Position numbers and translations under genes: made by a program. From assembly GCF_040807025.1 (NCBI RefSeq), contig NC_090967.1, positions 7,804,001-7,868,000 on the forward strand: a stretch of 64,000 nt of DNA. Direction: 5' to 3'. The notes beneath the pieces were generated by a model. It saw only the letters and a program-made list of their open reading frames with translations. It made no database searches and had not been told where the DNA came from. The DNA is from Struthio camelus (Eukaryota; Chordata; Aves; Struthioniformes; Struthionidae). This document shows, piece by piece, positions 21,783-63,604 of this stretch; the first letter of the stretch is position 1, and the number at the start of each line of letters is the position of its first letter.

Positions 21783-24700
21783 AGCGGGACGAGCAGGACG
21801 GAGCGGGGACAGAGCCGAGTTAGAGCCGGGCGCCGAGCGGGACGGAGCCGGGTGCGGAGCGGGACAGAGCCGGGTGCGGAGCGGGGACAGAGCCGGGTGC
21901 GGAGCGGGGACAGAGCCGGGCACCGAGCGGGACAGAGCCGGGCACCGAGCGGGACAGAGCCGGGTGCGGAGCGGGACAGAGCCGGGCACCGAGCAGGACA
22001 GAGCCGGGTGCGGAGCGGGGACAGAGCCGGGTGCGGAGCAGGACAGAGCCGGGCACCGAGCGGGACAGAGCCGGGCACCGAGCGGGACAGAGCCGGGCAC
22101 CGAGCAGGACAGAGCCGGGCACCGAGCGGGACAGAGCCGGGCACCGAGCGGGACAGAGCCGGGCACCGAGCAGGACAGAGCCGGGCACCGAGCGGGACAG
22201 AGCTGGGTGCGGAGCGGGACAGAGCCGGGCACCGAGCGGGGTCAGAGCCGGGCACCGAGCGGGACAGACCCGGGTGCGGAGCGGGGACAGAGCCGGGTGC
22301 GGAGCGGGACAGAGCCGGGCACCGAGCGGGGACAGAGCCGGGCACCGAGGGGTGACAGAGCCGGGTGCGGAGCAGGACAGAGCCGGGTGCGGAGCGGGGA
22401 CAGAGCCGGGTGCGGAGCGGGGACAGAGCCGGGCACCGAGCGGGACAGAGCCGGGTGCGGAGCGGGACAGAGCCGGGTGCGGAGCGGGGACAGAGCCGGG
22501 CACCGAGCGGGACAGAGCCGGGCACCGAGCGGGACAGAGCCGGGTGCGGAGCGGGACAGAGCCGGGTGCGGAGCGGGGACAGAGCCGGGCACCGAGCGGG
22601 ACAGAGCCGGGCACCGAGCGGGACAGAGCCGGGTGCGGAGCGGGACAGAGCCGGGCACCGAGCAGGACAGAGCCGGGTGCGGAGCGGGGACAGAGCCGGG
22701 TGCGGAGCAGGACAGAGCCGGGCACCGAGCGGGACAGAGCCGGGCACCGAGCAGGACAGAGCCGGGCACCGAGCGGGACAGAGCTGGGTGCGGAGCGGGA
22801 CAGAGCCGGGCACCGAGCGGGGTCAGAGCCGGGCACCGAGCAGGACAGAGCCGGGTGCGGAGCGGGGACAGAGCCGGGTGCGGAGCGGGGACAGAGCCGG
22901 GCACCGAGCGGGGACAGAGCCGGGCACCGAGCGGGACAGAGCCGGGCACCGAGCAGGGACAGAGCCGGGTGCGGAGCGGGGACAGAGCCGGGCACCGAGC
23001 GGGACAGAGCCGGGCACCGAGCAGGACAGAGCCGGGTGCGGAGCGGGGACAGAGCCGGGTGCGGAGCGGGGACAGAGCCGGGCACCGAGCGGGGACAGAG
23101 CCGGGCACCGAGCGGGACAGAGCCGGGCACCGAGCGGGACAGAGCCGGGTGCGGAGCGGGGACAGAGCCGGGCACCGAGCGGGACAGAGCCGGGTGCGGA
23201 GCGGGGACAGAGCCGGGCACCGAGCGGGACAGAGCCGGGCACCGAGCGGGACAGAGCCGGGTGCGGAGCGGGACAGAGCCAGGTGCGGAGCGGGGACAGA
23301 GCCGGGTGCGGAGCGGGACAGAGCCAGGTGCGGAGCGGGGACAGAGCCGGGCACCGAGCGGGGACAGAGCCGGGCACCGAGGGGGGACAGAGCCGGGCAC
23401 CGAGCAGGACAGAGCCGGGCACCGAGCGGGACAGAGCCGGGCACCGAGCGGGACAGAGCCGGGCACCGAGCAGGACAGAGCCGGGCACCGAGCGGGACAG
23501 AGCCGGGCACCGAGCAGGACAGAGCCGGGCACCGAGCGGGACAGAGCTGGGTGCGGAGCGGGACAGAGCCGGGCACCGAGCGGGGTCAGAGCCGGGCACC
23601 GAGCGGGACAGACCCGGGTGCGGAGCGGGGACAGAGCCGGGTGCGGAGCGGGACAGAGCCGGGCACCGAGCGGGGACAGAGCCGGGCACCGAGGGGTGAC
23701 AGAGCCGGGTGCGGAGCAGGACAGAGCCGGGTGCGGAGCGGGGACAGAGCCGGGTGCGGAGCGGGGACAGAGCCGGGCACCGAGCGGGACAGAGCCGGGT
23801 GCGGAGCGGGACAGAGCCGGGTGCGGAGCGGGGACAGAGCCGGGCACCGAGCGGGACAGAGCCGGGCACCGAGCGGGACAGAGCCGGGTGCGGAGCGGGA
23901 CAGAGCCGGGTGCGGAGCGGGGACAGAGCCGGGCACCGAGCGGGACAGAGCCGGGCACCGAGCGGGACAGAGCCGGGTGCGGAGCGGGACAGAGCCGGGC
24001 ACCGAGCAGGACAGAGCCGGGTGCGGAGCGGGGACAGAGCCGGGTGCGGAGCAGGACAGAGCCGGGCACCGAGCGGGACAGAGCCGGGCACCGAGCAGGA
24101 CAGAGCCGGGCACCGAGCGGGACAGAGCTGGGTGCGGAGCGGGACAGAGCCGGGCACCGAGCGGGGTCAGAGCCGGGCACCGAGCAGGACAGAGCCGGGT
24201 GCGGAGCGGGGACAGAGCCGGGTGCGGAGCGGGGACAGAGCCGGGCACCGAGCGGGGACAGAGCCGGGCACCGAGCGGGACAGAGCCGGGCACCGAGCAG
24301 GGACAGAGCCGGGTGCGGAGCGGGGACAGAGCCGGGCACCGAGCGGGACAGAGCCGGGCACCGAGCAGGACAGAGCCGGGTGCGGAGCGGGGACAGAGCC
24401 GGGTGCGGAGCGGGGACAGAGCCGGGCACCGAGCGGGGACAGAGCCGGGCACCGAGCGGGACAGAGCCGGGCACCGAGCGGGACAGAGCCGGGTGCGGAG
24501 CGGGGACAGAGCCGGGCACCGAGCGGGACAGAGCCGGGTGCGGAGCGGGGACAGAGCCGGGCACCGAGCGGGACAGAGCCGGGCACCGAGCGGGACAGAG
24601 CCGGGTGCGGAGCGGGACAGAGCCAGGTGCGGAGCGGGGACAGAGCCGGGTGCGGAGCGGGACAGAGCCAGGTGCGGAGCGGGGACAGAGCCGGGCACCG

Positions 24701-27700
24701 AGCGGGGACAGAGCCGGGCACCGAGCGGGGACAGAGCCGGGCACCGAGCGGGGACAGAGCCGGGTGCGGAGCGGGGACAGAGCCGGGCACCGAGCGGGAC
24801 AGAGCCGGGCACCGAGCGGGACAGAGCCGGGTGCGGAGCGGGGACAGAGCCGGGCACCGAGGGGGGACAGAGCCGGGCACCGAGCGGGACAGAGCCGGGC
24901 ACCGAGCGGGGACAGAGCCGGGTGCGGAGCGGGGACAGAGCCGGGCACCGAGCGGGGACAGAGCCGGGTGCGGAGCGGGGACAGAGCCGGGCACCGAGCG
25001 GGACAGAGCCGGGCACCGAGGGGGGACAGAGCCGGGTGCGGAGCGGGGACAGAGCCGGGTGCGGAGCGGGGACAGAGCCGGGCACCGAGCGGGGACAGAG
25101 CCGGGCACCGAGGGGGGACAGAGCCGGGTGCGGAGCGGGGACAGAGCCGGGCACCGAGCGGGGACAGAGCCGGGCACCGAGCGGGGACAGAGCCGGGTGC
25201 GGAGCGGGGACAGAGCCGGGCACCGAGCGGGGACAGAGCCGGGCACCGAGGGGGGACAGAGCCGGGTGCGGAGCGGGGACAGAGCCGGGTGCGGAGCGGG
25301 GACAGAGCCGGGCACCGAGCGGGGACAGAGCCGGGCACCGAGCGGGACAGAGCCGGGCACCGAGCGGGACAGAGCCGGGTGCGGAGCGGGGACAGAGCCG
25401 GGCACCGAGGGGGGACAGAGCCGGGTGCGGAGCGGGGACAGAGCCGGGCACCGAGCGGGGACAGAGCCGGGCACCGAGCGGGGACAGAGCCGGGTGCGGA
25501 GCGGGGACAGAGCCGGGCACCGAGCGGGGACAGAGCCGGGCACCGAGCGGGACAGAGCCGGGTGCGGAGCGGGGACAGAGCCGGGCACCGAGCAGGACAG
25601 AGCCGGGTGCGGAGCGGGGACAGAGCCGGGCACCGAGCGGGGACAGAGCCGGGCACCGAGCAGGACAGAGCCGGGTGCGGAGCGGGGACAGAGCCGGGCA
25701 CCGAGCGGGGACAGAGCCGGGCACCGAGCGGGACAGAGCCGGGTGCGGAGCGGGGACAGAGCCGGGCACCGAGGGGGGACAGAGCCGGGCACCGAGGGGG
25801 GACAGAGCCGGGTGCGGAGCGGGGACAGAGCCGGGCACCGAGCGGGACAGAGCCGGGCACCGAGCGGGGACAGAGCCGGGCACCGAGCGGGGACAGAGCC
25901 GGGTGCGGAGCGGGGACAGAGCCGGGTGCGGAGCGGGGACAGAGCCGGGCACCGAGCGGGACAGAGCCGGGCACCGAGGGGGGACAGAGCCGGGTGCGGA
26001 GCGGGGACAGAGCCGGGCACCGAGCGGGGACAGAGCCGGGCACCGAGGGGGGACAGAGCCGGGTGCGGAGCGGGGACAGAGCCGGGCACCGAGCGGGGAC
26101 AGAGCCGGGCACCGAGGGGGGACAGAGCCGGGTGCGGAGCGGGGACAGAGCCGGGTGCGGAGCGGGGACAGAGCCGGGCACCGAGCGGGACAGAGCCGGG
26201 TGCGGAGCGGGGACAGAGCCGGGCACCGAGCGGGGACAGAGCCGGGCACCGAGCGGGACAGAGCCGGGTGCGGAGCGGGGACAGAGCCGGGCACCGAGCG
26301 GGACAGAGCCGGGTGCGGAGCGGGGACAGAGCCGGGCACCGAGCGGGGACAGAGCCGGGCACCGAGCGGGACAGAGCCGGGCACCGAGCGGGACAGAGCC
26401 GGGTGCGGAGCGGGACAGAGCCGGGCACCGAGCGGGACAGAGCCGGGCACCGAGCAGGGACAGAGCCGGGTGCGGAGCGGGACAGAGCCGGGTGCGGAGC
26501 GGGGACAGAGCCGGGCACCGAGCAGGACAGAGCCGGGTGCGGAGCGGGGACAGAGCCGGGCACCGAGGGGTGACAGAGCCGGGCACCGAGCGGGACAGAG
26601 CCGGGCACCGAGGGGGGACAGAGCCGGGTGCGGAGCGGGACAGAGCCGGGTGCGGAGCGGGGACAGAGCCGGGCACCGAGCGGGACAGAGCCGGGCACCG
26701 AGGGGGGACAGAGCCGGGTGCGGAGCGGGACAGAGCCGGGCACCGAGCGGGACAGAGCCGGGCACCGAGCGGGGACAGAGCCGGGTGCCGAGCAGGACGG
26801 AGCCGGGTGCGGAGCGGGGACAGAGCCGGGCACCGAGCGGGACAGAGCCGGGCACCGAGCGGGGACAGAGCCGGGCACCGAGGGGGGACAGAGCCGGGCA
26901 CCGAGCGGGACAGAGCCGGGTGCGGAGCGGGGACAGAGCCGGGCACCGAGCGGGGACAGAGCCGGGCACCGAGCGGGACAGAGCCGGGTGCGGAGCGGGA
27001 CAGAGCCGGGCACCGAGCAGGGACAGAGCCGGGTGCGGAGCGGGGACAGAGCCGGGCACCGAGCGGGACAGAGCCGGGCACCGAGCAGGACAGAGCCGGG
27101 TGCGGAGCGGGGACAGAGCCGGGTGCGGAGCGGGGACAGAGCCGGGCACCGAGCGGGGACAGAGCCGGGCACCGAGCGGGACAGAGCCGGGCACCGAGCG
27201 GGACAGAGCCGGGTGCGGAGCGGGGACAGAGCCGGGCACCGAGCGGGACAGAGCCGGGTGCGGAGCGGGGACAGAGCCGGGCACCGAGCGGGACAGAGCC
27301 GGGTGCGGAGCGGGACAGAGCCGGGTGCGGAGCGGGACAGAGCCGGGCACCGAGCGGGACAGAGCCGGGCACCGAGGGGGGACAGAGCTGGGTGCGGAGC
27401 GGGACAGAGCCGGGTGCGGAGCGGGGACAGAGCCGGGCACCGAGCAGGACAGAGCCGGGCACCGAGCGGGGACAGAGCCGGGCACCGAGGGGGGACAGAG
27501 CCGGGCACCGAGCGGGACAGAGCCGGGTACCGAGCAGGACAGAGCTGGGTGCGGAGCGGGGACAGAGCCGGGCACCGAGCGGGACAGAGCCGGGCACCGA
27601 GCGGGGACAGAGCCGGGCACCGAGGGGGGACAGAGCCGGGCACCGAGCGGGACAGAGCCGGGTACCGAGCAGGACAGAGCTGGGTGCGGAGCGGGACAGA

Positions 27701-28768
27701 GCCGGGTGCGGAGCGGGGACAGAGCCGGGCACCGAGCAGGACAGAGCCGGGCACCGAGCGGGGACAGAGCCGGGCACCGAGGGGGGACAGAGCCGGGCAC
27801 CGAGCGGGACAGAGCCGGGTACCGAGCAGGACAGAGCTGGGTGCGGAGCGGGGACAGAGCCGGGCACCGAGGGGGGACAGAGCCGGGCACCGAGCGGGAC
27901 AGAGCCGGGCACCGAGCAGGACAGAGCCGGGTGCGGAGCGGGACAGAGCCGGGCACCGAGCGGGGACAGAGCCGGGCACCGAGCGGGACAGAGCCGGGCA
28001 CCGAGCAGGACAGAGCCGGGTGCGGAGCGGGGACAGAGCCGGGCACCGAGGGGGGACAGAGCCGGGCACCGAGCGGGGACAGAGCCGGGCACCGAGCGGG
28101 ACAGAGCCGGGTGCGGAGCGGGACAGAGCCGGGCACCGAGCGGGGACAGAGCCGGGCACCGAGCGGGACAGAGCCGGGTGCGGAGCGGGGACAGAGCCGG
28201 GTGCGGAGCGGGGACAGAGCCGGGCACCGAGCGGGACAGAGCCGGGTGCGGAGCGGGACAGAGCCGGGTGCGGAGCGGGGACAGAGCCGGGCACCGAGCG
28301 GGGACAGAGCCGGGCACCGAGCGGGACAGAGCCGGGTGCGGAGCGGGACAGAGCCGGGTGCGGAGCGGGGACAGAGCCGGGCACCGAGCGGGGACAGAGC
28401 CGGGCACCGAGCGGGGACAGAGCCGGGTGCGGAGCGGGGACAGAGCCGGGCACCGAGCGGGACAGAGCCGGGTGCGGAGCGGGACAGAGCCGGGTGCGGA
28501 GCGGGGACAGAGCCGGGCACCGAGCGGGGACAGAGCCGGGCACCGAGCGGGACAGAGCCGGGTGCGGAGCGGGACAGAGCCGGGCACCGAGCGGGGACAG
28601 AGCCGGGCACCGAGCGGGGACAGAGCCGGGTACCGAGCAGGACAGAGCCGGGTGCGGAGCAGGACAGAGCCGGGCACCGAGCGGGACAGAGCCGGGTGCG
28701 GAGCGGGACAGAGCCGGGTGCGGAGCGGGACAGAGCCGGGCACCGAGCGGGACAGAGCCGGGCGCGGA
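21783..28768. repeat. Large minisatellite, 22/23-bp unit, about 7 kb
   Basis: Uninterrupted tandem array; dividing its length by the unit gives roughly 310 copies. Each unit is GGGACAGAGCCGGG followed by either TGCGGAGC or CACCGAGC. Further variants are an extra G (23 bp), GCAGGAC, GAGGGGGGACA and rare GGTCAGAG, GACAGACCC and GAGCTGGG forms. Units at both ends are more degenerate (for example GCCGAGTTAGAGCC near 21815), as in arrays homogenised from the centre. The plus strand carries about twice as many Gs as Cs per unit. Open frames longer than 2,300 codons run through it on both strands because the units happen to lack stops; I treat them as non-coding. Confidence 0.97.
22037..24724. repeat. 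Higher-order tandem duplication of 1,344 bp inside the 22/23-bp minisatellite
   Basis: Rare unit variants recur in the same order exactly 1,344 bases apart: GACAGACCC at 22261/23605 (unit starts), GGTGAC at 22351/23695, GTCAGAG at 22241/23585 and 22822/24166, and GCCAGGTG near 23279/24623. Left and right limits are about 22.04/23.38 and 23.38/24.72 kb. After that the first copy continues with a GAGGGGGGACA unit where the second has GAGCGGGGACA. Confidence 0.85.
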
Positions 28769-30917: not shown

Positions 30918-45472
<14,555 letters not shown>

Positions 45473-52500: not shown

Positions 52501-54793
52501 CTTTTTTGTCTCGGTAGCTGGAGCTATCCTCCCCGCACTGTAAGCCCTGGAGCGTACAGCTACAATTAAGGCCAAAGTAAGGAGGGCACCAAGGACAGTA
52601 AGTGAAGTTTGTTCTACAGATGCAGGCTCAGATTTTCTCCCGAGTGTCTTAGTCTGGCAGTGTCATGACACAAAGACTCTCAGCAGGGACCTCACAGCTC
52701 TGAGGTCTTGAACTTTATGCCTTCCTTGCAGCAAAGGGAGGAGAGAAACCAATCCTGTTTACAGCACAGGAAATCAGTATAGGCAGAAGATTATTATAAA
52801 ACTCCTCCTCCCCCTCCCTGCCCTGCATTGGGTTCAGATATACTGTGAAATTCTGCCTATGCCTCACTTTGAGTCTCAGTCAAAACCAGTATGCTTGAAA
52901 GTCCTCAGGGGGAAAAAGCAGGTGAATGGAGTTACCGTTTTCATACTTATTCTAAGGCAAATCTCAGAGCTGTAGGTCTTGGAACACGCTTTGGTGTAAA
53001 ACATAATATTCTCAGCATTTCACTGTCCAGCACATTCTTCCCTTGCTCTCCTGTACCGGCAGCGGTTCCCCTGTCGTGACGGAGGGCTGAATTGGGTTGT
53101 ACAGGCTGATTCCTTCTTAGCTGTTGCTTCAGTGTGGCTGCATTGTGCATGTGTGCGGAGTGTCTGGGAAAGGGTCCTTTGGGAAAAGCTTTCCTCTGGC
53201 TGCTTCTCCTGCAATTTTGTAGAGAATTGAAGAGTTGTACCATCACCTCTTACTGACAAGTCTATGCTTTTGTGATCTGAGGCTTTCCCTTAAAAAGTGT
53301 GTATGGGGGGGTTGTTTCTTCTTTTCAAAGTTTGGGAGAGGACGAAGTTCTCTGGATCCTCTTATCGTGGTGAATCTCCATCCTGCCTGTGTTTCACTTC
53401 CATCATACGAACGCAGAAGCTGACTGAGCAGCGTTGATTAAGTCTGGACTGCAAGCACTGTGTGCGCTGCTGGTGGACCCACGGGTGCTACTCCAGCGCT
53501 CTTTCAGATCAGCTGGTCTGCTGATGTGCAGATGTCCTGGCCAGTTACCATGAGCTCTAATTGGGTCAGACTAACATAGATCTGGGTATGCCAATGGTTA
53601 GGAGGTTAACCCTGAGCACCTGTAATGAGGGAGAGAGTGACTGCAGGGCTGGATCTGTTGCTCCATCTGCCTTGGACTCCCTGAGTGAGTGGCAGCCGAG
53701 GAGCTTCACCCCTGTCCGCTATGGCGAAGCGGAAAGAGTTAAGTGCTGGTGCTGTGCAAAATGCAGCGTGGTCTCTGAACGGCCCAGTTTTCACAGGTGA
53801 GGAGCCCCCTTCATGTGAGCAGAACTTGAAGTGCATGGGGGAAGTGAAAGTGCTGGCTTGTGACAATGCAGAAGAGCCTCCTGGAGCGGGTGACTCTGTT
53901 TTTAGAGCTTGAATTTGTAGATGTCTGAGATTCCATTTCCCTCCCCTCCTTGGGGCAGAGGTTGTGGTATGAGAGGTGTCAGATAAGGAAGCGAGAAGCT
54001 GTTTTGTTTTTTCTTGTCATTCTCTGTGACCTGGGGTTGGAGGGGTTCGTTGTGAAGCTCTGTTGCCTGTGGACCCCTTGTCTAGGCCGGGGAGAAGGCG
54101 TGTTTCTCAGGATGGAGGTTTTCTCCTGCGTGGCTCATGGATGAGAGCTTGCGCAGGATGTGAGGAGCGCAGCTTAGCAGTCTTAGCTAGCTTTGTAACT
54201 TGGATGTGATTGACAAAGATATCCCAAGGGGCAGGATTCTGGCTGGGGACATGGGAATGTGTTTCTGGAGGAACTGCTGTTAAGCCAACTTGAAAACACA
54301 GTGAGACCTAGCAGATTTTTCTCAATGAAATCCTAAGCAACTAAAGATGTTGAACTCATCCTCTTTTTAGGTTGCTTGCCAGATCTCCAGATTAATTTCC
54401 ATCAGATGTGATATTTTCAAGCTTTATTCTAGGAGAGGCATGTCTTCCCCCCCCCCCCCCACCTTAAACCACAGTCTTTGGAAGAAAAAGTTCCCTGAAT
54501 GTCAGGCCTTGGGGGAGATGTGTGGTTTTTCTCTCTGCTGTCAAAGTCGCTAAAAAGACCTGAATGACTCGGGGTGTCCTCGTGGACGCTTGCATGCTTG
54601 TGACGGAGGGCTCATCTGGATTCCCCTGAGCAAACTTCTGACTAGCACCTGCCTGAGCCCTGCCAGCAGCAGACAGAAGGGCAGAGGACTGGAGGGGTGG
54701 AGCAGGGAGGGAAGAAGCCTGCTGTACCCCTGCCCGGCTCCAAAGAGCTCTGCTGCTACAAGTGCCTTTCCCCCCAGAAACCCTGCTGCTGCC
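49561..54793. other. Intergenic region between GNA11 and GNA15 relic
   Basis: No exon, RNA gene or transposon is recognised. Small open frames (for example 53685-53912) have no family similarity I can name. The region holds an A-tract at 50834-50850, a C-tract near 54449-54462 and the 27-bp duplication listed separately. Confidence 0.5.
51121..51174. repeat. Two-copy tandem duplication, 27-bp unit
   Basis: GAAAAGAAAGTGTACGTG... is followed at once by GAAAAGAAACTGTACGTG..., and both end GTGGTCTCCT. The copies differ by one base (G/C), so the duplication is young. Confidence 0.85.
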
Positions 54794-57700
54794 ATGGCTC
54801 AGTGCTTCAGCTGCTGCCGCCTGTGCCCGTGTTTCCTCTCAGAGGAGGATAAAGCTGCCATCCGGATCAACAGAAAAATCAACAAAATACTGAGGGAGGA
54901 AAAGAGACAAAACCAGCAAGAGCTGAAATTGCTGCTTCTTGGTGAGTCACCCTGGGGGGAAGGTGCTGTTTGTCTGTTGGGTGACAGCTCAGCAGAGGAG
55001 GGGTGGAGAGAGGAAGAAGCGGGGCCGTGGGGTAGGAGGTGTGATGGGGGGAGTGAGCCCCCAAAGTGCCAACTTGAAGGGTTTTGTCTTTGCTTTTCTT
55101 GGTCATCTTGTCACTAGGAACTTCCCCTCTGAATGTGTCTCTCTGAAGCTGCCAACTCTCTAGATGTGGCACATTGCGGTCCCACCCTGCCGTTCCTCTG
55201 TGTCCCACAGGAGAGAACTACTTGTCCGTCTCTCCTTGTCCCACAGGAGACCTCTCTGCCTTCACTGCTGCTATTCTTCTGTGCCACAGAGGACTGTTCT
55301 CCTTCTCTTGTATTGCCTGCCTTAAATAACTATACTCAGAGTAGCTGTGCCCAGAGCAACTGTGCTTGACACTTGCTTTCAGATCTCAAGACAGGGCTGG
55401 CATCATAAACACTACCATGCACAACTTCCTGCTCCTAGTTCCCCCCTTACTGTAACCCAAGTGTCACCCGGAGAGCGCATTTGGTGTCAGGGCTGGAACA
55501 GGGCTCTGTTTTCCATGATGTGTCTAGGAAGGTGGCTGCTCTCTTCACTCTCACTCTAATCCTTCCCCTTTCCCCTGTTCTTAGCAAAATGCCTCATTAA
55601 TTCTGGGTGTGGATGCTTGCAGAGTAGTGACTCTCAGTAAGCCCTATGAAAATGCCATCGAGAGCCTGTGGAGGGATGCTGGCATCAGGACGTGTTACGA
55701 GAGACGATGGGAATATCACTTGCTGGATTTGGCTTACTTGTGAGTTACAGAGTGGGACTGGGGAGCATGCGTGCCTGACTACATGTGAGGAGTGCTGCTG
55801 GCTGGCCAGTGCCAGGAATGGTTCTGACGTGCCTGGGTGCTCTGGGATGTTCTTCTCCCAGCTTCATCTTTGTGCAACCTTGAGCAAGTCAATTCCACTC
55901 TTGCATTTTGCTCCGTTTATCTTCAGCATCTTCAGAGTGAGGACTGATTCTTCTGCACTCACATACAGCACCTAGCGTAGGAGGATCTTTGTCATGGGAC
56001 CTTTGGCCACTACTGTGATATCACAGATATTTCACTGCTGCATTTTTGTGGGTTGCCAATGATCAAACACCTACGTCTTTCACTCTTGTTTCCAGTATAA
56101 TCAGGCACAGAAATCTCTTGAAACTTTGGGTATGATTTCTTTTCTGAGACGCCAAAATCAGTGTCTCTTCTGTGGGGTTTTTGTTTCAGTAGGGTTGGGT
56201 GTTATCACAAGTTACAGATCCTTCTGAGAAGAGAAGGATGATGATACAGTTAAAGCATGGGGACTGGAGCAGGACTTGCAGTTCTGTTTCCTTTATTGCT
56301 ACAGATTCACTTTATCCTTTTATGGACTGGCAGAGATCTGAGATGAAACTGCGTATTGCAGTAGTACCTTACAGCCTAGTCAAAGACCAAGACCTTGCTG
56401 CGCTAGATGCTGTACAAATGCTGTGTTAATTGACAGCTTGGTTACGGTGAGGACCAGTGTTCTGGCTGTCTGCGCTGTCTGTGGCTTGAACCAGGAACAG
56501 GGCCTTTGCTCTTGAGCCAGTGGGTGTAGTCTGGCTTGTGGCCGAGGTTTTGGGGATATTGCCTTTTGGAATAGCATGGTTGCACCCACATGGCACAGCA
56601 ATAGGTCTAGATCTCTTTCTCCACCATGTGGTACCCGTGGTCAGAAAATATAGTGGATTTTGGCTTTGATTTCTTTTTTTTCCCCCCTCCCTTTGAACTT
56701 CTTAAGAAATACAGAGATGGTGATGCCATAGCCCTGTTGGATGCAGTATTTAAACTGTGACATCAAGGGGCATGAGTGTGTCTGCCTTTGGAGGTGGTGT
56801 AAAGATGCAGATGAAGGGGGCAATTAAAGGCATGAAACCTGCTGGACAGCTCTCCAATGCTACCCAGAGATAGAGAAAGTCAGGTTTGGTGCTACCTGCC
56901 TCCAGACTGTCTATGCTGGGAATGCACTTGCCTCCCTGCCAGGCCAGGCTTTCCCCTTAGAAAGACCTACTTGCTGTACTCCAGAGGGGAACCTGGAAGT
57001 GAGCTGGCATGTGCACAGCAGAGGGTGAGAGGAACATGGCCTGAGAATCAGCCAAAGACACTGCAGACATGTAGCACAGCCCTGGACTGCTTCCTTGTTC
57101 CATGACTCCCTGCAGTTTTCTGTCCGATCTAGAGCGGATGGCTGAGGACTCTTTCATTCCGCAGCTCAGGATGTGCTGCGGAGCCGAAAGTCTACAACTG
57201 GCATCAATGAATACTGCTTCTCAGTGCAGAATGTGACCTTAAGGCGAAGCTACTGTAAAGCAGTCAGCAGTATGAGGATGGCAAGTGCATGGGATTCCCC
57301 TTCTCCCAAGCAACCCTCCTGAACACCCCCCCCCCCCCCGCCTCTTTATTGCACCTCCTGCCCTTATTTCCCCTCTCTGGTGGGAAATAAGGCGGTGCTA
57401 CCATAGGAACCTCTGCTTTTGCTTGGGCTGGGCAGGGGCTGTGGTTACTGGGAAGCAGAGTCCAGCCCTTGTGCATCTCTGTGCCTTCTCTTCTTTGGGA
57501 AGTTGTTAGCAGCCTGAATGCCAGGCATTTGAATCCCAGCTGGCTCTGTGCTCTGCCTGGCTGCTGCCCTCTACCCAGGAGGTCACTGCTTGCTGCTGGG
57601 GATCTGTCTTATGCTTTTAGTCTGCTTTCAAGACCTTTTTCAGGGAAAGGGCAGATCTGTGATTGCTGCAAGCTGGCAGTGGGGACCCAGATCCCCAGCT

Positions 57701-58955
57701 GGGGTTACATGGCTCAGCAGGTCCCTCTCAGCAGAGCCACTGTAACTGGCCACCTGCCAGCACTCAGCCTGCAGGAAGTTTGAGGTAAGACAAGTTCACT
57801 TCCACTCCTTGGTGAGGTTTCTGCTCCCTTACTTTTGCAGAATGAGAGCGCGTGTGGGATGTGTCACAGCTTGCCTGGTGCCCAGTACCCTGATGAGGTG
57901 TGCCAAGGCAGTCCCGGGGGCTCCAAGGCCCTGATCCCTGTCAAAAGCTGTGGTCCTACGTGCTGCCTGCCTGAAGGGGACGAGTGCCCGTCCTCAGCCT
58001 CCAAGTGACCTGTTGCCCTGGCAGGATTGTGGATGTGAGGGGACAGAAATCGGAGCGGAAGAAATGGATCCACTGTTTTGAGAATGTGATTGCTCTCATC
58101 TATCTGGCTTCCCTCAGCAAACATGACCAGTGCCTGGAAGAGAACAGCAAGGAGGTGAGGAGCTGGTAGGGTGTGCTGGGAGGAGCTGGCACGGAAACTT
58201 GTACCTCTGATCTCCGCTGCATGCGTGCGGTGGTGCTCCAGGAAGGTGCTGGTGAGGAGTGTGGGGCCCGTCCCTGCTGCCACCACTCTGGAGCGGGTCT
58301 GCGTAGTTTGCCAGAGTGCTCTGGGAGTGTGGTGGGACGAGCATCTGCCCGAGGGGAACAGCGGTCTCTGCTTGTGTCCCTCCTGCTGCAGAATCTGATG
58401 AAGGAGAGCCTGGCTCTGTTCAGACCTATCCTGAGCTGCTCTGGTTCCAGCACACATTGGTGATCCTCTTCCTGAACAAAACAGACCTCCTGGAGGACAA
58501 GATCACTGCCTCAGACCTGGACAAGTACTTTCCCTCCTTCCATGGTAATGCCCTCCTCTGGGTGCTGTGAGGCTTGCAGACTGGCTCCCGCAGGCTCTGC
58601 AAGTCCTGCGTGCCAGGAGAGCAGGCCTGCCACTGGCTGCCCTCAGCCTCGGGCAGGGGGAGCTGCCTGCCAGCTCCCCTCACTTCAATCCTGTGGGATG
58701 GGGGTTCCTTCTTGTACCTCAGGGCCCAAGCAAGATGCAGAAGCAGCCAAGCAGTTTATCCTGGACGTGTATGTGGACACCTACAGGAAATGCTCAGCTC
58801 TCAACAGCAGCACCAGGTCGGGACTCCTTCAAACCATCCCTATGTCCAGGTGCCTTTACTGCCACTACACATGCACTACTGACACACACAACATCCACAA
58901 GGTCTTCAGAGATGTGATATTGGTTGCCTACTGGGAAGATGTCGATCTTCTGTGA
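54794..58955 (+). pseudogene. GNA15: GNA15 (G alpha-15/16) unitary pseudogene
   Basis: Six of seven G-alpha exons are present in order: 54794-54941 (exon 1, begins MAQCFSCCRLCPCFLSEEDK, ATG in a good context), 55585-55739 (exon 3, normal 155 bases, NAIESLWRDAGIRTCYERRW), 57116-57243 (exon 4), 58025-58154 (exon 5), 58392-58544 (exon 6) and 58723-58955 (exon 7, ends at TGA). Exon 2 (185 bases, P-loop and start of the helical domain) is absent; only 643 bases lie between exons 1 and 3, and joining them breaks the frame. Exon 4 is 128 rather than 129 bases (lesion near 57160, before the AQDVLRSR region) and exon 6 is 153 rather than 154 (near 58433). The exon 4 donor reads AG|GC. Switch II reads DVRGQ instead of DVGGQ, and TCAT reads TCTT. 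Other splice sites are intact and similarity is still high, so decay looks recent. GNA15 normally links haematopoietic receptors to phospholipase C beta. LEENSKE and NKTD identify GNA15 rather than GNA14 or GNAQ. Confidence 0.9.
55195..55315. repeat. Short imperfect tandem repeat where GNA15 exon 2 would be expected
   Basis: Three imperfect copies of a roughly 45-50-bp unit marked by CTGTGTCCCACAGGAGA, CTTGTCCCACAGGAGA and CTGTGCCACAGAGGA. The words look like splice acceptors, but no P-loop coding follows any of them. Confidence 0.5.
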
Positions 58956-60134: not shown

Positions 60135-60140
60135 TTTATT
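60135..60140 (-). terminator. Candidate polyadenylation signal of the protease-like gene
   Basis: Plus-strand TTTATT reads AATAAA on the gene's strand, about 530 bases past its stop; I saw no nearer signal. Confidence 0.45.
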
Positions 60141-60670: not shown

Positions 60671-63526
60671 TCATGCTGACTTCATGACACTGTTGATCCA
60701 TGGGAGGTAGGCAGCGATGTTTGTGTAGAAACCAGGCCAATTGCCATACCGATAGGAGAAGATACCGTAGGCTTTGTTGTTGCAGACAAGTGGGCCCCCG
60801 ATATCACCCTGCAAAACAGGCAGATGGTGGGGGAGAGAGCAGCGATGATTATGGGGTGACCCCAGGAGGGGGGTGCATGTACTGGGAACAGGGAGGCTGC
60901 AAATGCCAGAACAGAGCTTCTGCAGGCAGAGCTTGGACTTACCGTGGACGTGGGTAGCTCTGGCTCCAAAAGGAACCATAGGTAGTCCTGTCTGGGGCCA
61001 GTATGGGACCCAGCGCAGCTACAGCTGGGGGAACGCTGAAGCTTAAAGCTCATATCTACCCTTCTACTTGCTGCGCAGCACTACGAAATGCGCTTAGCCC
61101 TGCTGTGAGGTGGAGGACAAACCCCTCAGCAGCCAAACCATATCCCCTTGGGCTGTGGCAGGCTCCTAGGCACTCTGCTGTGGGAAGAAAGAAGGCTGCC
61201 CTTGTCTCTCCTGTGGGCACAGAGCTTGGCATGAGCGTAATGCCTGCTGTCTGCAGGCATACTTCTGGCCCTGCAAGGGGCTGATCCTTGGAGATGGAGG
61301 CCCAGGGCACCACTTCATCTCCTAGGCCAGGACAACAAGAGAGAGGGATGCTAGCAAGGAAGCATAGGCTGATGGTGGCACGGTAAGGGGACAATAACAA
61401 GCAATTTTGGACAGCACGCTTTCAGTGAAGTTTCTTAGCCCAGATCCAATTCATGCCCAGGACCTGTCTGCAACCTTCCCCTACAGCCATCTACTCCCTG
61501 TGTCAAATACTGACCTTTTCAAGCACTCCAGTGGATCTGCTGCGGGCACAGATCAAGTTGTTAGCAAGTCCGGGGTTTAAGTTCAGGCAGTCCCTTGGTT
61601 TGAGGATGGTGACGTTGGCTTCATGGAGCATCGCAGCAGGCGTCTCGTGGCCCCAGCCAGCTATGCTGCATACAGGCCCTCCAAGGGCTTTTTGTTTTTG
61701 GAAGGAAATGGTCTTAACATAGTTATTGCTGATGGCAGTGCCTTTCAGCTGGACAAGGGGACAGAAAATAGAGAAAAAAAGTATTTGATCTTTAAATGTT
61801 CTGTGATGAAGGCTGTCCCCTCCCGCTCCAGTGTTAAAGCTCAGCCCTGCGTGTCGAGGAGTTCAGACAGATGGGACCATGCAGGTGCTCCAGGCAAGCA
61901 GTTACCTTCAGCAGGAGGATGTCCTTCCCCTTCTGAGGATTTGTGAAGTCTGGGTGGCGGTGATACTTTTGGACTTCAAATGTTTGCCAGCTCTCCTCTT
62001 TCTTCTGGATGTTGTGGGCTCCCAGGATGACCGACAGAGGTTTGTGGCTGGTAAAAATTAAACTCAGTGTCTGTCGTTTGGCTTTTCCTGTCTGCCCAGG
62101 TAACAATGAGGCACATCTCTTCGGGGTACAGCCTCGCGATACAGTCTGGGCTTTAAGCAAGAGTGGTGGGAGCAAAGAGCTCTGCCAGGGAATCTACCCA
62201 GCCAAGAGGCAGACTGAAATACCGATGACAGACAGAGCTCTGCATGCGTTACTCTGCTTCCAGCACTTGAGCCTGCAGTTAGGAGCTAGCTGAGCTGATT
62301 TGGTCCAATGTTACTGCTGTGTAAGGACATGTATTAATGTATGTAGACTATTGCTCTGGGCTTCACAGGCCTGGGGAAATCCATGGCACCAGGCAGCGAT
62401 TTCTAAAACAGGATCCTGCTCCGGGCCAGCATACTGTTATCTTTACTAGCCTTTGCATTGTCTGCAGAAGGGACTGCCTTGGCAAAGCTGGAAGGGTGCT
62501 GGGTGCAGAGGGCAGTCCCTCTCCGTTGGGCAGGTGGGACTTTGGGCACCTGGCCCTGGATCCTGCTCTTCATCTTCTGCTAACTCTCCTTTTTGTCACC
62601 CGGACAGGGGAGCTGGCTCTGAGCCTGGGCTATGGGCATGGGGGCAGAGCTGTCAGCCCCAAGGTGTCTAGGAACTCTACCCAGAGTTCACACATAGCTG
62701 GAAAAGCCACCTTGCCTGTCCCTGCCTCTGTTTTCCCAACCAAAGGGATGGAAGAGAGCTGGATAAGCAGCTGCCTCAAAACAGAAGACTGTTAATTCTG
62801 GTAACAATCTTGCAGGTCTTTGGTGGCAGAAAGGGCAAAGCCTGATGCCAGTAACCCCTGCTAGGCCAGCAGCTCTGTGACAGCAGCTGGTTCAGCTTCT
62901 GATTGGATGTCCAGGAGGAGTCAGATAGGTCATGAAGAAGACCTGGTAAGGAGCTGACCTTGCCCTGAGCATGCCCTGAGAAGGGCATAGGGAAGGGTGG
63001 CTTGAGGGAGAGCTGTGGATGGGCCCCTGCTGTGTTGGTGCCAGCCCCCGTAGCCTTACCCTGTCCTAGCAGTGCTAGAAAAAGAGCTTGGTCGCAGCCT
63101 GGGAAGGAAGTGACTCAACATGTTAGGCCTCTGTCTAGGTGATGTTATCTGGATCATGGCAGCACAACAATCTCACTGTGTTAGGTGCCGTACAAAAGTA
63201 GCACAAACTTACTTGAAACACTGAGCCGCTGTCATCACCCAACTCGGGGCCACCAGGAAGCCTCCACAGAAGCGGTTGTTCTTTCCCTGCAGATAGGCCA
63301 TGTAGGGTCTGGAGTGGGCCTTGGCTTCGGCTCTTCCCTCAATCCGATTCCAGAAATAATCTGCAACGCACAGGACCGAGGCTGAGCAGAGTTGGGGGTG
63401 CAGGATGCACCAGCCAAGACCTTTCCCAGCCCTTACCCCACCTTATGGCTGGTCCTACTTACTGGTGATAGCCGGAGGATATGTCACCAGCAGCAGAGAG
63501 AGCAGGAGTTTCTGCACGTGCTTCAT
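60671..63526 (-). CDS. Granzyme/chymase/cathepsin-G-type serine protease homologue lacking catalytic His and Ser, 5 exons, 241 aa
   Basis: Exons in transcript order: 63463-63526, 63213-63360, 61906-62047, 61515-61748 and 60671-60808 (726 bases). Phases 1, 2, 0, 0 are those of the granzyme/chymase group, and all sites are GT-AG. Residues 1 to about 18 form a hydrophobic signal peptide ([13 protein letters not shown]...). Arg27-Ile28 is the likely activation cut: the mature protein would start [18 protein letters not shown], keeping Ile16 but replacing the usual IIGG/IVGG. TAAHC reads TAAQC (Gln68 for His57), Asp113 (KGKDILLLK) keeps Asp102, and GDSGG reads GDIGG (Ile199 for Ser195). Cys53, 69, 145, 172, 185 and 205 give the three disulfides typical of granzymes, without the 191-220 pair. 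One sequon lies at Asn163 (NVT). My count gives about 25 Lys/Arg against 12 Asp/Glu in the mature chain, strongly cationic. The frame is clean throughout, so this reads as a maintained, secreted, non-catalytic protein in the manner of azurocidin. Orthology to a named human gene is not established; early-stage decay with an intact frame is the alternative. Confidence 0.88.
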
Positions 63527-63597: not shown

Positions 63598-63604
63598 TTT
63601 TATA
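63598..63604 (-). promoter_or_regulatory. TATA box of the protease-like gene
   Basis: TATAAAA on the minus strand, 72-78 bases before the start codon. A start site 25-30 bases downstream would leave a 5' UTR of about 45 bases, usual for granule-protease genes. Confidence 0.7.

Follow-up and report, generated by a model that had tools for sequence, protein, structure and literature searches.

An intact granzyme-type gene without a catalytic centre, and a triad-keeping tandem partner with a broken frame, in the ostrich genome assembly

The genome that we searched is a 1.45-Gb, 262-contig assembly of the ostrich, and the stretch of DNA analysed here (‘the window’, 64,000 nucleotides in length) corresponds to positions 7804001–7868000 of its contig. 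Globin sequence from the assembly accords with this species: joined alpha-A globin exons 2 and 3 scored 236.9 bits against ostrich haemoglobin (PDB 3a59/3fs4) and 218.1 bits against the next single-domain chain, from emu (3wtg), while six engineered double-domain chains ranked higher solely through matching twice. For scale, the query scored 238.2 bits when matched to itself within a chain of the same length, and 235.6–236.3 bits with a single real replacement. A protease-like gene, referred to below as the pseudoprotease gene, runs from position 63526 to position 60671 of the window on the minus strand, and a second, tandem protease gene lies on the same strand ~2.5 kb upstream of its start, beyond the window end. 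The gene order across the region is a G-alpha gene, the pseudoprotease gene, the second protease gene, a receptor gene and a nicalin-like gene. Four of six flanking open frames matched a Pfam profile: a plus-strand frame with a G-alpha exon at window positions 58476–58952 (E = 2e-5; 24.4 bits, below the curated cut-off of 48.8), a rhodopsin-type receptor (7tm_1) frame at L011:179–1690 and a Peptidase_M28 frame at L011:8374–8850 (21.9 bits, with a cut-off of 21.3), both beyond the window end, and a PC4 frame in the flanking stretch L012. A Pfam search of the frames at window positions 54554–55114 and L011:7255–7620 gave no match. On the basis of position we take the G-alpha exon to belong to GNA15, the receptor to be S1PR4 and the M28-like exon to belong to NCLN; with its neighbours so named, the pseudoprotease gene is located between GNA11/15 and NCLN.

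The window also contains a 23-bp G/A-rich unit repeated in tandem over 6.9 kb (positions 21822–28763; ∼308 copies, 88% match), a 3.7-kb array of a 64-bp GC-rich unit (positions 30953–34606; ∼57 copies, 95% match) and further GC-rich arrays at 12.3–14.2 and 15.5–15.8 kb. With Rfam gathering scores as thresholds, no RNA family matched the window.

The pseudoprotease gene is complete and comprises five exons, whose coding frame (64 + 148 + 142 + 234 + 138 = 726 nt, or 241 amino acids and a stop) contains no internal stop. Exon 1 (63463–63526) encodes the signal peptide and ends at a phase 1 donor (GTAAGT), and exon 2 (63213–63360) encodes a propeptide (NYFWNR), the start of the mature protein (IEGR), Cys42, a TAAQC motif and Cys58. 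Exon 3 (61906–62047) carries Asp102, exon 4 (61515–61748) carries Cys136, Cys168, Cys182 and Val189, and exon 5 (60671–60808) carries a GDIGG motif, Cys201, Arg216 and the stop. The four introns (102, 1165, 157 and 706 nt; phases 1, 2, 0 and 0) all begin with GT and end with AG. A TATAAA box is found 78 nt before the ATG (63599–63604, minus strand), and the sole AATAAA or ATTAAA within 1500 nt of the stop, identified as a sequence match only, is an AATAAA at +530 nt (60135–60140, minus strand). Residues 1–21 are predicted by hydropathy (GRAVY 0.87) to form the signal peptide. A preliminary description of this locus, made from the letters of the window, had proposed an intact five-exon frame of 726 coding bases with canonical splice sites, a TATA box, a signal peptide and six granzyme-type cysteines, all of which were borne out.

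The encoded protein matches the Pfam Trypsin profile (PF00089) over its whole length (E = 4e-47; 161.3 bits, with a cut-off of 20.6; profile positions 2–220 of 220) and thus belongs to the S1A fold family. The mature protein contains six cysteines (positions 42, 58, 136, 168, 182 and 201 by alignment) and does not have the 191–220 bridge, which together with the five exons and phases of 1, 2, 0 and 0 corresponds to the granzyme/chymase type. Its best PDB relatives, among the best 60 of 505 sequences, are chymase, cathepsin G and granzymes C, H and B. The highest-scoring of these, mast-cell chymase (CMA1; 147.6 bits), shares with it the stretch GAHNI..EE..WQ..EV.K..RHP, but differs in having kept its triad and in having an S1 triplet of SGA; genes that cluster with the chymase locus have apparently been lost in birds, according to the available text of PMC8537139. 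A search of IMG/VR contigs with the protein gave seven pattern matches, none of which was a relative by tblastn. The mature protein is strongly basic (pI 9.58; net charge +13, from 25 K+R and 12 D+E), compared with a pI of 8.52 for the tandem paralogue and 9.72 for human chymase. Two granzyme-type proteins from the ostrich genome are, like human chymase, as basic as the pseudoprotease (pI 9.5–9.7), so that its basicity is a family trait and does not constitute evidence of a new role.

Inspection of the active-site positions revealed glutamine at position 57 (codon CAG, 63221–63223), aspartate at position 102 (GAC, 61921–61923) and isoleucine at position 195 (ATC, 60800–60802), rather than the His57-Asp102-Ser195 triad of an active peptidase. 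The TAAQC and GDIGG motifs, and the retained equivalent of Asp102, had been pointed out in the preliminary description and are found at these codons. Several features lie beyond that description: the minus-strand orientation, the neighbouring protease gene outside the window, two substitutions in the S1 site (Val189, codon GTG at 61524–61526, and Arg216, codon CGG at 60749–60751) and two in the activation region (I17E and G19R). The S1 triplet at positions 189, 216 and 226 is therefore V/R/G rather than DGG. Ile16, Asp102, Gly193, Asp194 and the six fold cysteines are kept. No Ser195 codon of four relatives in the same genome can be turned into the Ile195 codon by fewer than two nucleotide changes, and Val189 is two changes away from the three Asp189 codons among them, indicating that neither substitution corresponds to a single read error. 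The pseudoprotease gene is thus a fold-preserving, secretion-type gene without a catalytic centre or a tryptase S1 site, and a new point is that in the ostrich copy the S1 pocket and activation motif have gone together with the triad.

The tandem paralogue likewise comprises five exons, with intron phases identical to those of the pseudoprotease gene and a TATA box at −76 (compared with −78). It encodes His57, Asp102 and Ser195 together with a D/G/G triplet, which is the published tryptase pattern. Its reading frame shifts in a G run directly after the GDSGG codons of exon 5 (L010 ∼2150–2156; near contig position 7870150), and the rest of its trypsin domain continues in another frame. We found no AATAAA or ATTAAA in the ∼2 kb after its stop, and a single-strand fold prediction at the site of the frame change gave nothing (z −0.13). 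A search of the genome with a 1801-base query from the paralogue returned the gene itself once at full length and two short matches only. Because the genome offers no second copy, the cause of the frame change is left between three options: it may be a real lesion, a polymorphism or an assembly error. As assembled, the gene that keeps the triad is broken and the gene that has lost it is whole, and the broken frame of this partner in the ostrich assembly is a new point.

The two proteins are 46% identical overall. A 53-bp stretch around the catalytic His codon (window positions 63219–63271 versus exon 2 of the paralogue) is 83% identical, which, set against that protein identity, may reflect either conservation or local gene conversion. 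The two promoters are not significantly alike (over 150 nt, 148 and 132 random windows out of 2000 each scored as high), and their likeness was rejected as evidence, since ∼7% of random windows reach the same score.

Protease genes at a GNA11–NCLN locus are known in birds, reptiles and frogs (PMC8537139, PMC4646688), and the pseudoprotease gene is placed as expected for that locus and not for the met-ase locus. The contig also carries a GZMM-type and a CFD-type gene (both named from their sequence), at distances of ∼320 and ∼430 kb from it. The chicken CTSG-like and GzmG-like genes, as described in PMC8537139 and PMC4646688, resemble the ostrich locus in lying between G-alpha and nicalin genes, in being two tandem genes and in their granzyme-type fold. 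The text available of PMC4646688 reports all genes of this branch with a DGG triplet, as tryptases, whereas the pseudoprotease has V/R/G and neither His57 nor Ser195. Quesada et al. describe, at odds with PMC4646688, one gene of the GNA11–NCLN type in chicken (PMC2865498).

We next compared the pseudoprotease with five relatives whose triad is intact: the tandem paralogue (with the stretch of the frame change masked), the CFD-, GZMM- and GZMA-type genes of the same genome (each named from its sequence) and human chymase. The GZMA-type gene is present on two large contigs (C40, 70.4 Mb, and C41, 89.9 Mb) that agree at 99.75% over 9,690 bases. Such agreement is what the pseudoautosomal region of a ratite, with its large W and Z chromosomes, would show; GZMA is Z-linked in birds. 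In ostrich, the W is reported to reach 65% of the Z in size, with a diversity of 0.0016 in the pseudoautosomal region (PMC10343094). A trypsin-type tandem array was also observed on contig C1 (89650001–89714000), with nine exon matches of near-equal score ∼7.5 kb apart among the matches listed.

Among the alignment columns in which four or more rows have data, 47 are invariant in the five relatives, and the pseudoprotease alters five of them (G19R, P24A, H57Q, one L-to-S replacement and S195I). When each relative was compared in the same way with the other four, 2/46, 12/56, 7/51, 5/49 and 6/50 columns were changed, and the corresponding counts for the pseudoprotease against the same-sized sets of four were 5/48, 8/56, 8/51, 7/49 and 7/50. 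These comparable counts indicate that the core of the pseudoprotease is kept no worse than the cores of its relatives. The changes are concentrated at functional positions, with three of eight functional invariant columns altered versus two of the 39 others (Fisher p 0.029). A textbook list of 14 functional positions, drawn up post hoc and including three (17, 189 and 216) that are not strictly invariant among the relatives, gave six changes, versus the same 2/39 (p 0.0027). A wider, query-anchored panel of 17 rows from the ostrich genome, many of them partial, gave a difference in the same direction that was not significant (3/10 versus 1/18; p 0.12).

Unique replacements are more numerous in the pseudoprotease than in the paralogue with each of four outgroups (23 versus 18 with chymase, 31 versus 15 with GZMA, 25 versus 14 with GZMM and 22 versus 15 with CFD), with only the GZMA comparison reaching p < 0.05 (p 0.018). 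The pseudoprotease is 40.0, 39.3 and 36.8% identical to the GZMA, GZMM and CFD types (paralogue: 46.9, 44.8 and 39.6%) and 40.7% identical to human chymase (paralogue: 41.9%). As judged from these sequence comparisons, the pseudoprotease appears to evolve somewhat faster than its paralogue, as under relaxed selection, yet is far from unconstrained. Pairwise dN/dS values against the four ostrich relatives were 0.21–0.54 (dS 1.2–3.0), and were not relied on because dS is near saturation and the CFD–GZMM pair gave 1.03.

A gene of this kind has been described before. The zebra finch GZMZL, reported in 2010 as a non-peptidase granzyme with two catalytic substitutions, was called finch-specific (PMC2865498). 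Compared by description, it resembles the ostrich pseudoprotease in carrying two catalytic-residue substitutions in a duplicate of GZMZ; it differs in its reported restriction to the finch, while the ostrich copy, which may be its orthologue, occurs in a ratite. No description of a ratite copy was found in the open-licence texts available to us. The kind of gene is therefore already known, and its occurrence in a ratite is new. This occurrence suggests that the pseudo-granzyme is older than thought or that it is recurrent, with inactivation either predating the palaeognath–neognath split or having taken place at least twice; the DGG triplet reported for all genes of the branch (PMC4646688, in the text available) speaks for a later or repeated loss.

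The preliminary description had cited azurocidin as a precedent for loss of catalysis. Azurocidin (CAP37/HBP; AZU1) is a cationic leukocyte serine-protease homologue that does not catalyse and works by binding, a role that the ostrich protein may share, and its catalytic substitutions differ from those of the pseudoprotease. The comparison holds as an analogy. Orthology was rejected, since the pseudoprotease gene has other flanking genes and a place of the GNA11–NCLN type, and no azurocidin is present among the best 60 of 505 PDB matches. Azurocidin itself is reported from the met-ase locus of some placental mammals only (PMC4646688, in the text available).

The earlier proposal of a non-catalytic role, which had been drawn from the loss of two triad residues in an otherwise open gene, is partly supported: a non-catalytic protein with a kept protease fold is the best-supported reading of the alignments and invariant-column tests, and the open frame by itself is weak evidence of function. 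In a neutral simulation (with an assumed indel ratio of 0.08 and kappa of 4), the chance of acquiring neither a stop nor a frameshift was 0.19, 0.08 and 0.017 at 0.02, 0.03 and 0.05 substitutions per site, respectively. We believe that the pseudoprotease is probably a functional pseudoenzyme derived from a tandem duplicate of the bird GNA11–NCLN granule protease (‘granzyme Z / CTSG-like / GzmG-like’). This reading is supported by the intact frame, splice sites, phases, TATA box and AATAAA, by the gathering of changes at functional positions while the core is kept, and by the reported absence of azurocidin from zebra finch and chicken together with the presence of a non-peptidase granzyme copy in zebra finch (PMC2865498, in the text available); it is weakened by the faster evolution relative to the paralogue and by the p value of 0.12 in the wider panel.

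If the pseudoprotease is such a pseudoenzyme, it would be made with its signal peptide in blood cells and then be either stored in granules or secreted, as a strongly basic protein with a protease fold. It would be unable to cleave peptides and would act by binding, most likely to polyanions (proteoglycan, LPS or heparan sulfate) or to a receptor, in the manner of azurocidin in some mammals; given the charge of the protein, polyanion binding is plausible. We take the chicken CTSG and granzyme G-like genes to be genes of the GNA11–NCLN locus, and the chicken CTSG-like enzyme is reportedly expressed in thrombocytes, to judge from the title of a paper on it. In single reports, chicken CTSG appears in a granulocyte cluster and the granzyme G-like gene in gamma-delta-enriched T cells (PMC10067856), and CTSG is used elsewhere as an NK marker (PMC11965369).

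The pseudoprotease gene could instead be a recently inactivated, decaying gene that has not yet been hit by a stop or a frameshift, a possibility that the two lower substitution levels of the simulation leave some room for, and that would be in keeping with the already broken frame of its tandem partner and with the excess of unique replacements over that partner with all four outgroups, one of them significant. We regard decay as unlikely, since six functional codons have been altered, requiring at least nine nucleotide changes, while 37 of the other 39 invariant columns show no change; neutral evolution lasting long enough to alter six codons should have affected the core as well. The comparable copy in zebra finch (as described in PMC2865498) also argues against it.

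The authors of the 2010 study proposed for zebra finch GZMZL that it acts as a decoy or regulator, sequestering substrates or inhibitors of active granzyme Z (PMC2865498), and the tandem position of the pseudoprotease gene beside a paralogue with the triad and D/G/G would suit such a role. For the ostrich protein we consider it improbable: with Val189 and Arg216, an S1 site that could mimic a DGG tryptase is gone, and the presumed active partner is itself frame-broken in the assembly. A covalent serpin complex, which needs Ser195, would likewise be out of reach.

That an error of assembly or gene model hides a normal, catalytically active protease is very hard to credit: the frame change in the neighbour's G run indicates that small errors are possible in this region, but H57Q, S195I, D189V, G216R, I17E and G19R would together demand about nine separate wrong bases in a clean frame with canonical splice sites and intron phases. 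The idea that some remaining or changed activity persists, with Asp102 working alongside a different nucleophile, has least to recommend it, since Asp102, Gly193 and Asp194 are kept but His57 and Ser195 are gone, the S1 site is altered and Ile195 is no nucleophile.

Should the copies in ratite and zebra finch prove orthologous, the ‘finch-specific’ label of 2010 would be wrong and a pseudo-granzyme would have been kept for most of bird history, as a counterpart that arose independently of mammalian azurocidin and a natural experiment on what a granule protease does once proteolysis is gone. A bolder and tentative extension is that birds, which have no azurocidin, kept a non-catalytic granzyme with a wholly remodelled active site for roughly as long as crown birds have existed, and that in ratites it outlived its triad-keeping partner, leaving a dead enzyme as the sole working product of the locus. 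If the copies are not orthologous, the same kind of gene would have lost catalysis twice. The broken frame of the paralogue, if real, would alter how granule-protease repertoires are counted in ratites.
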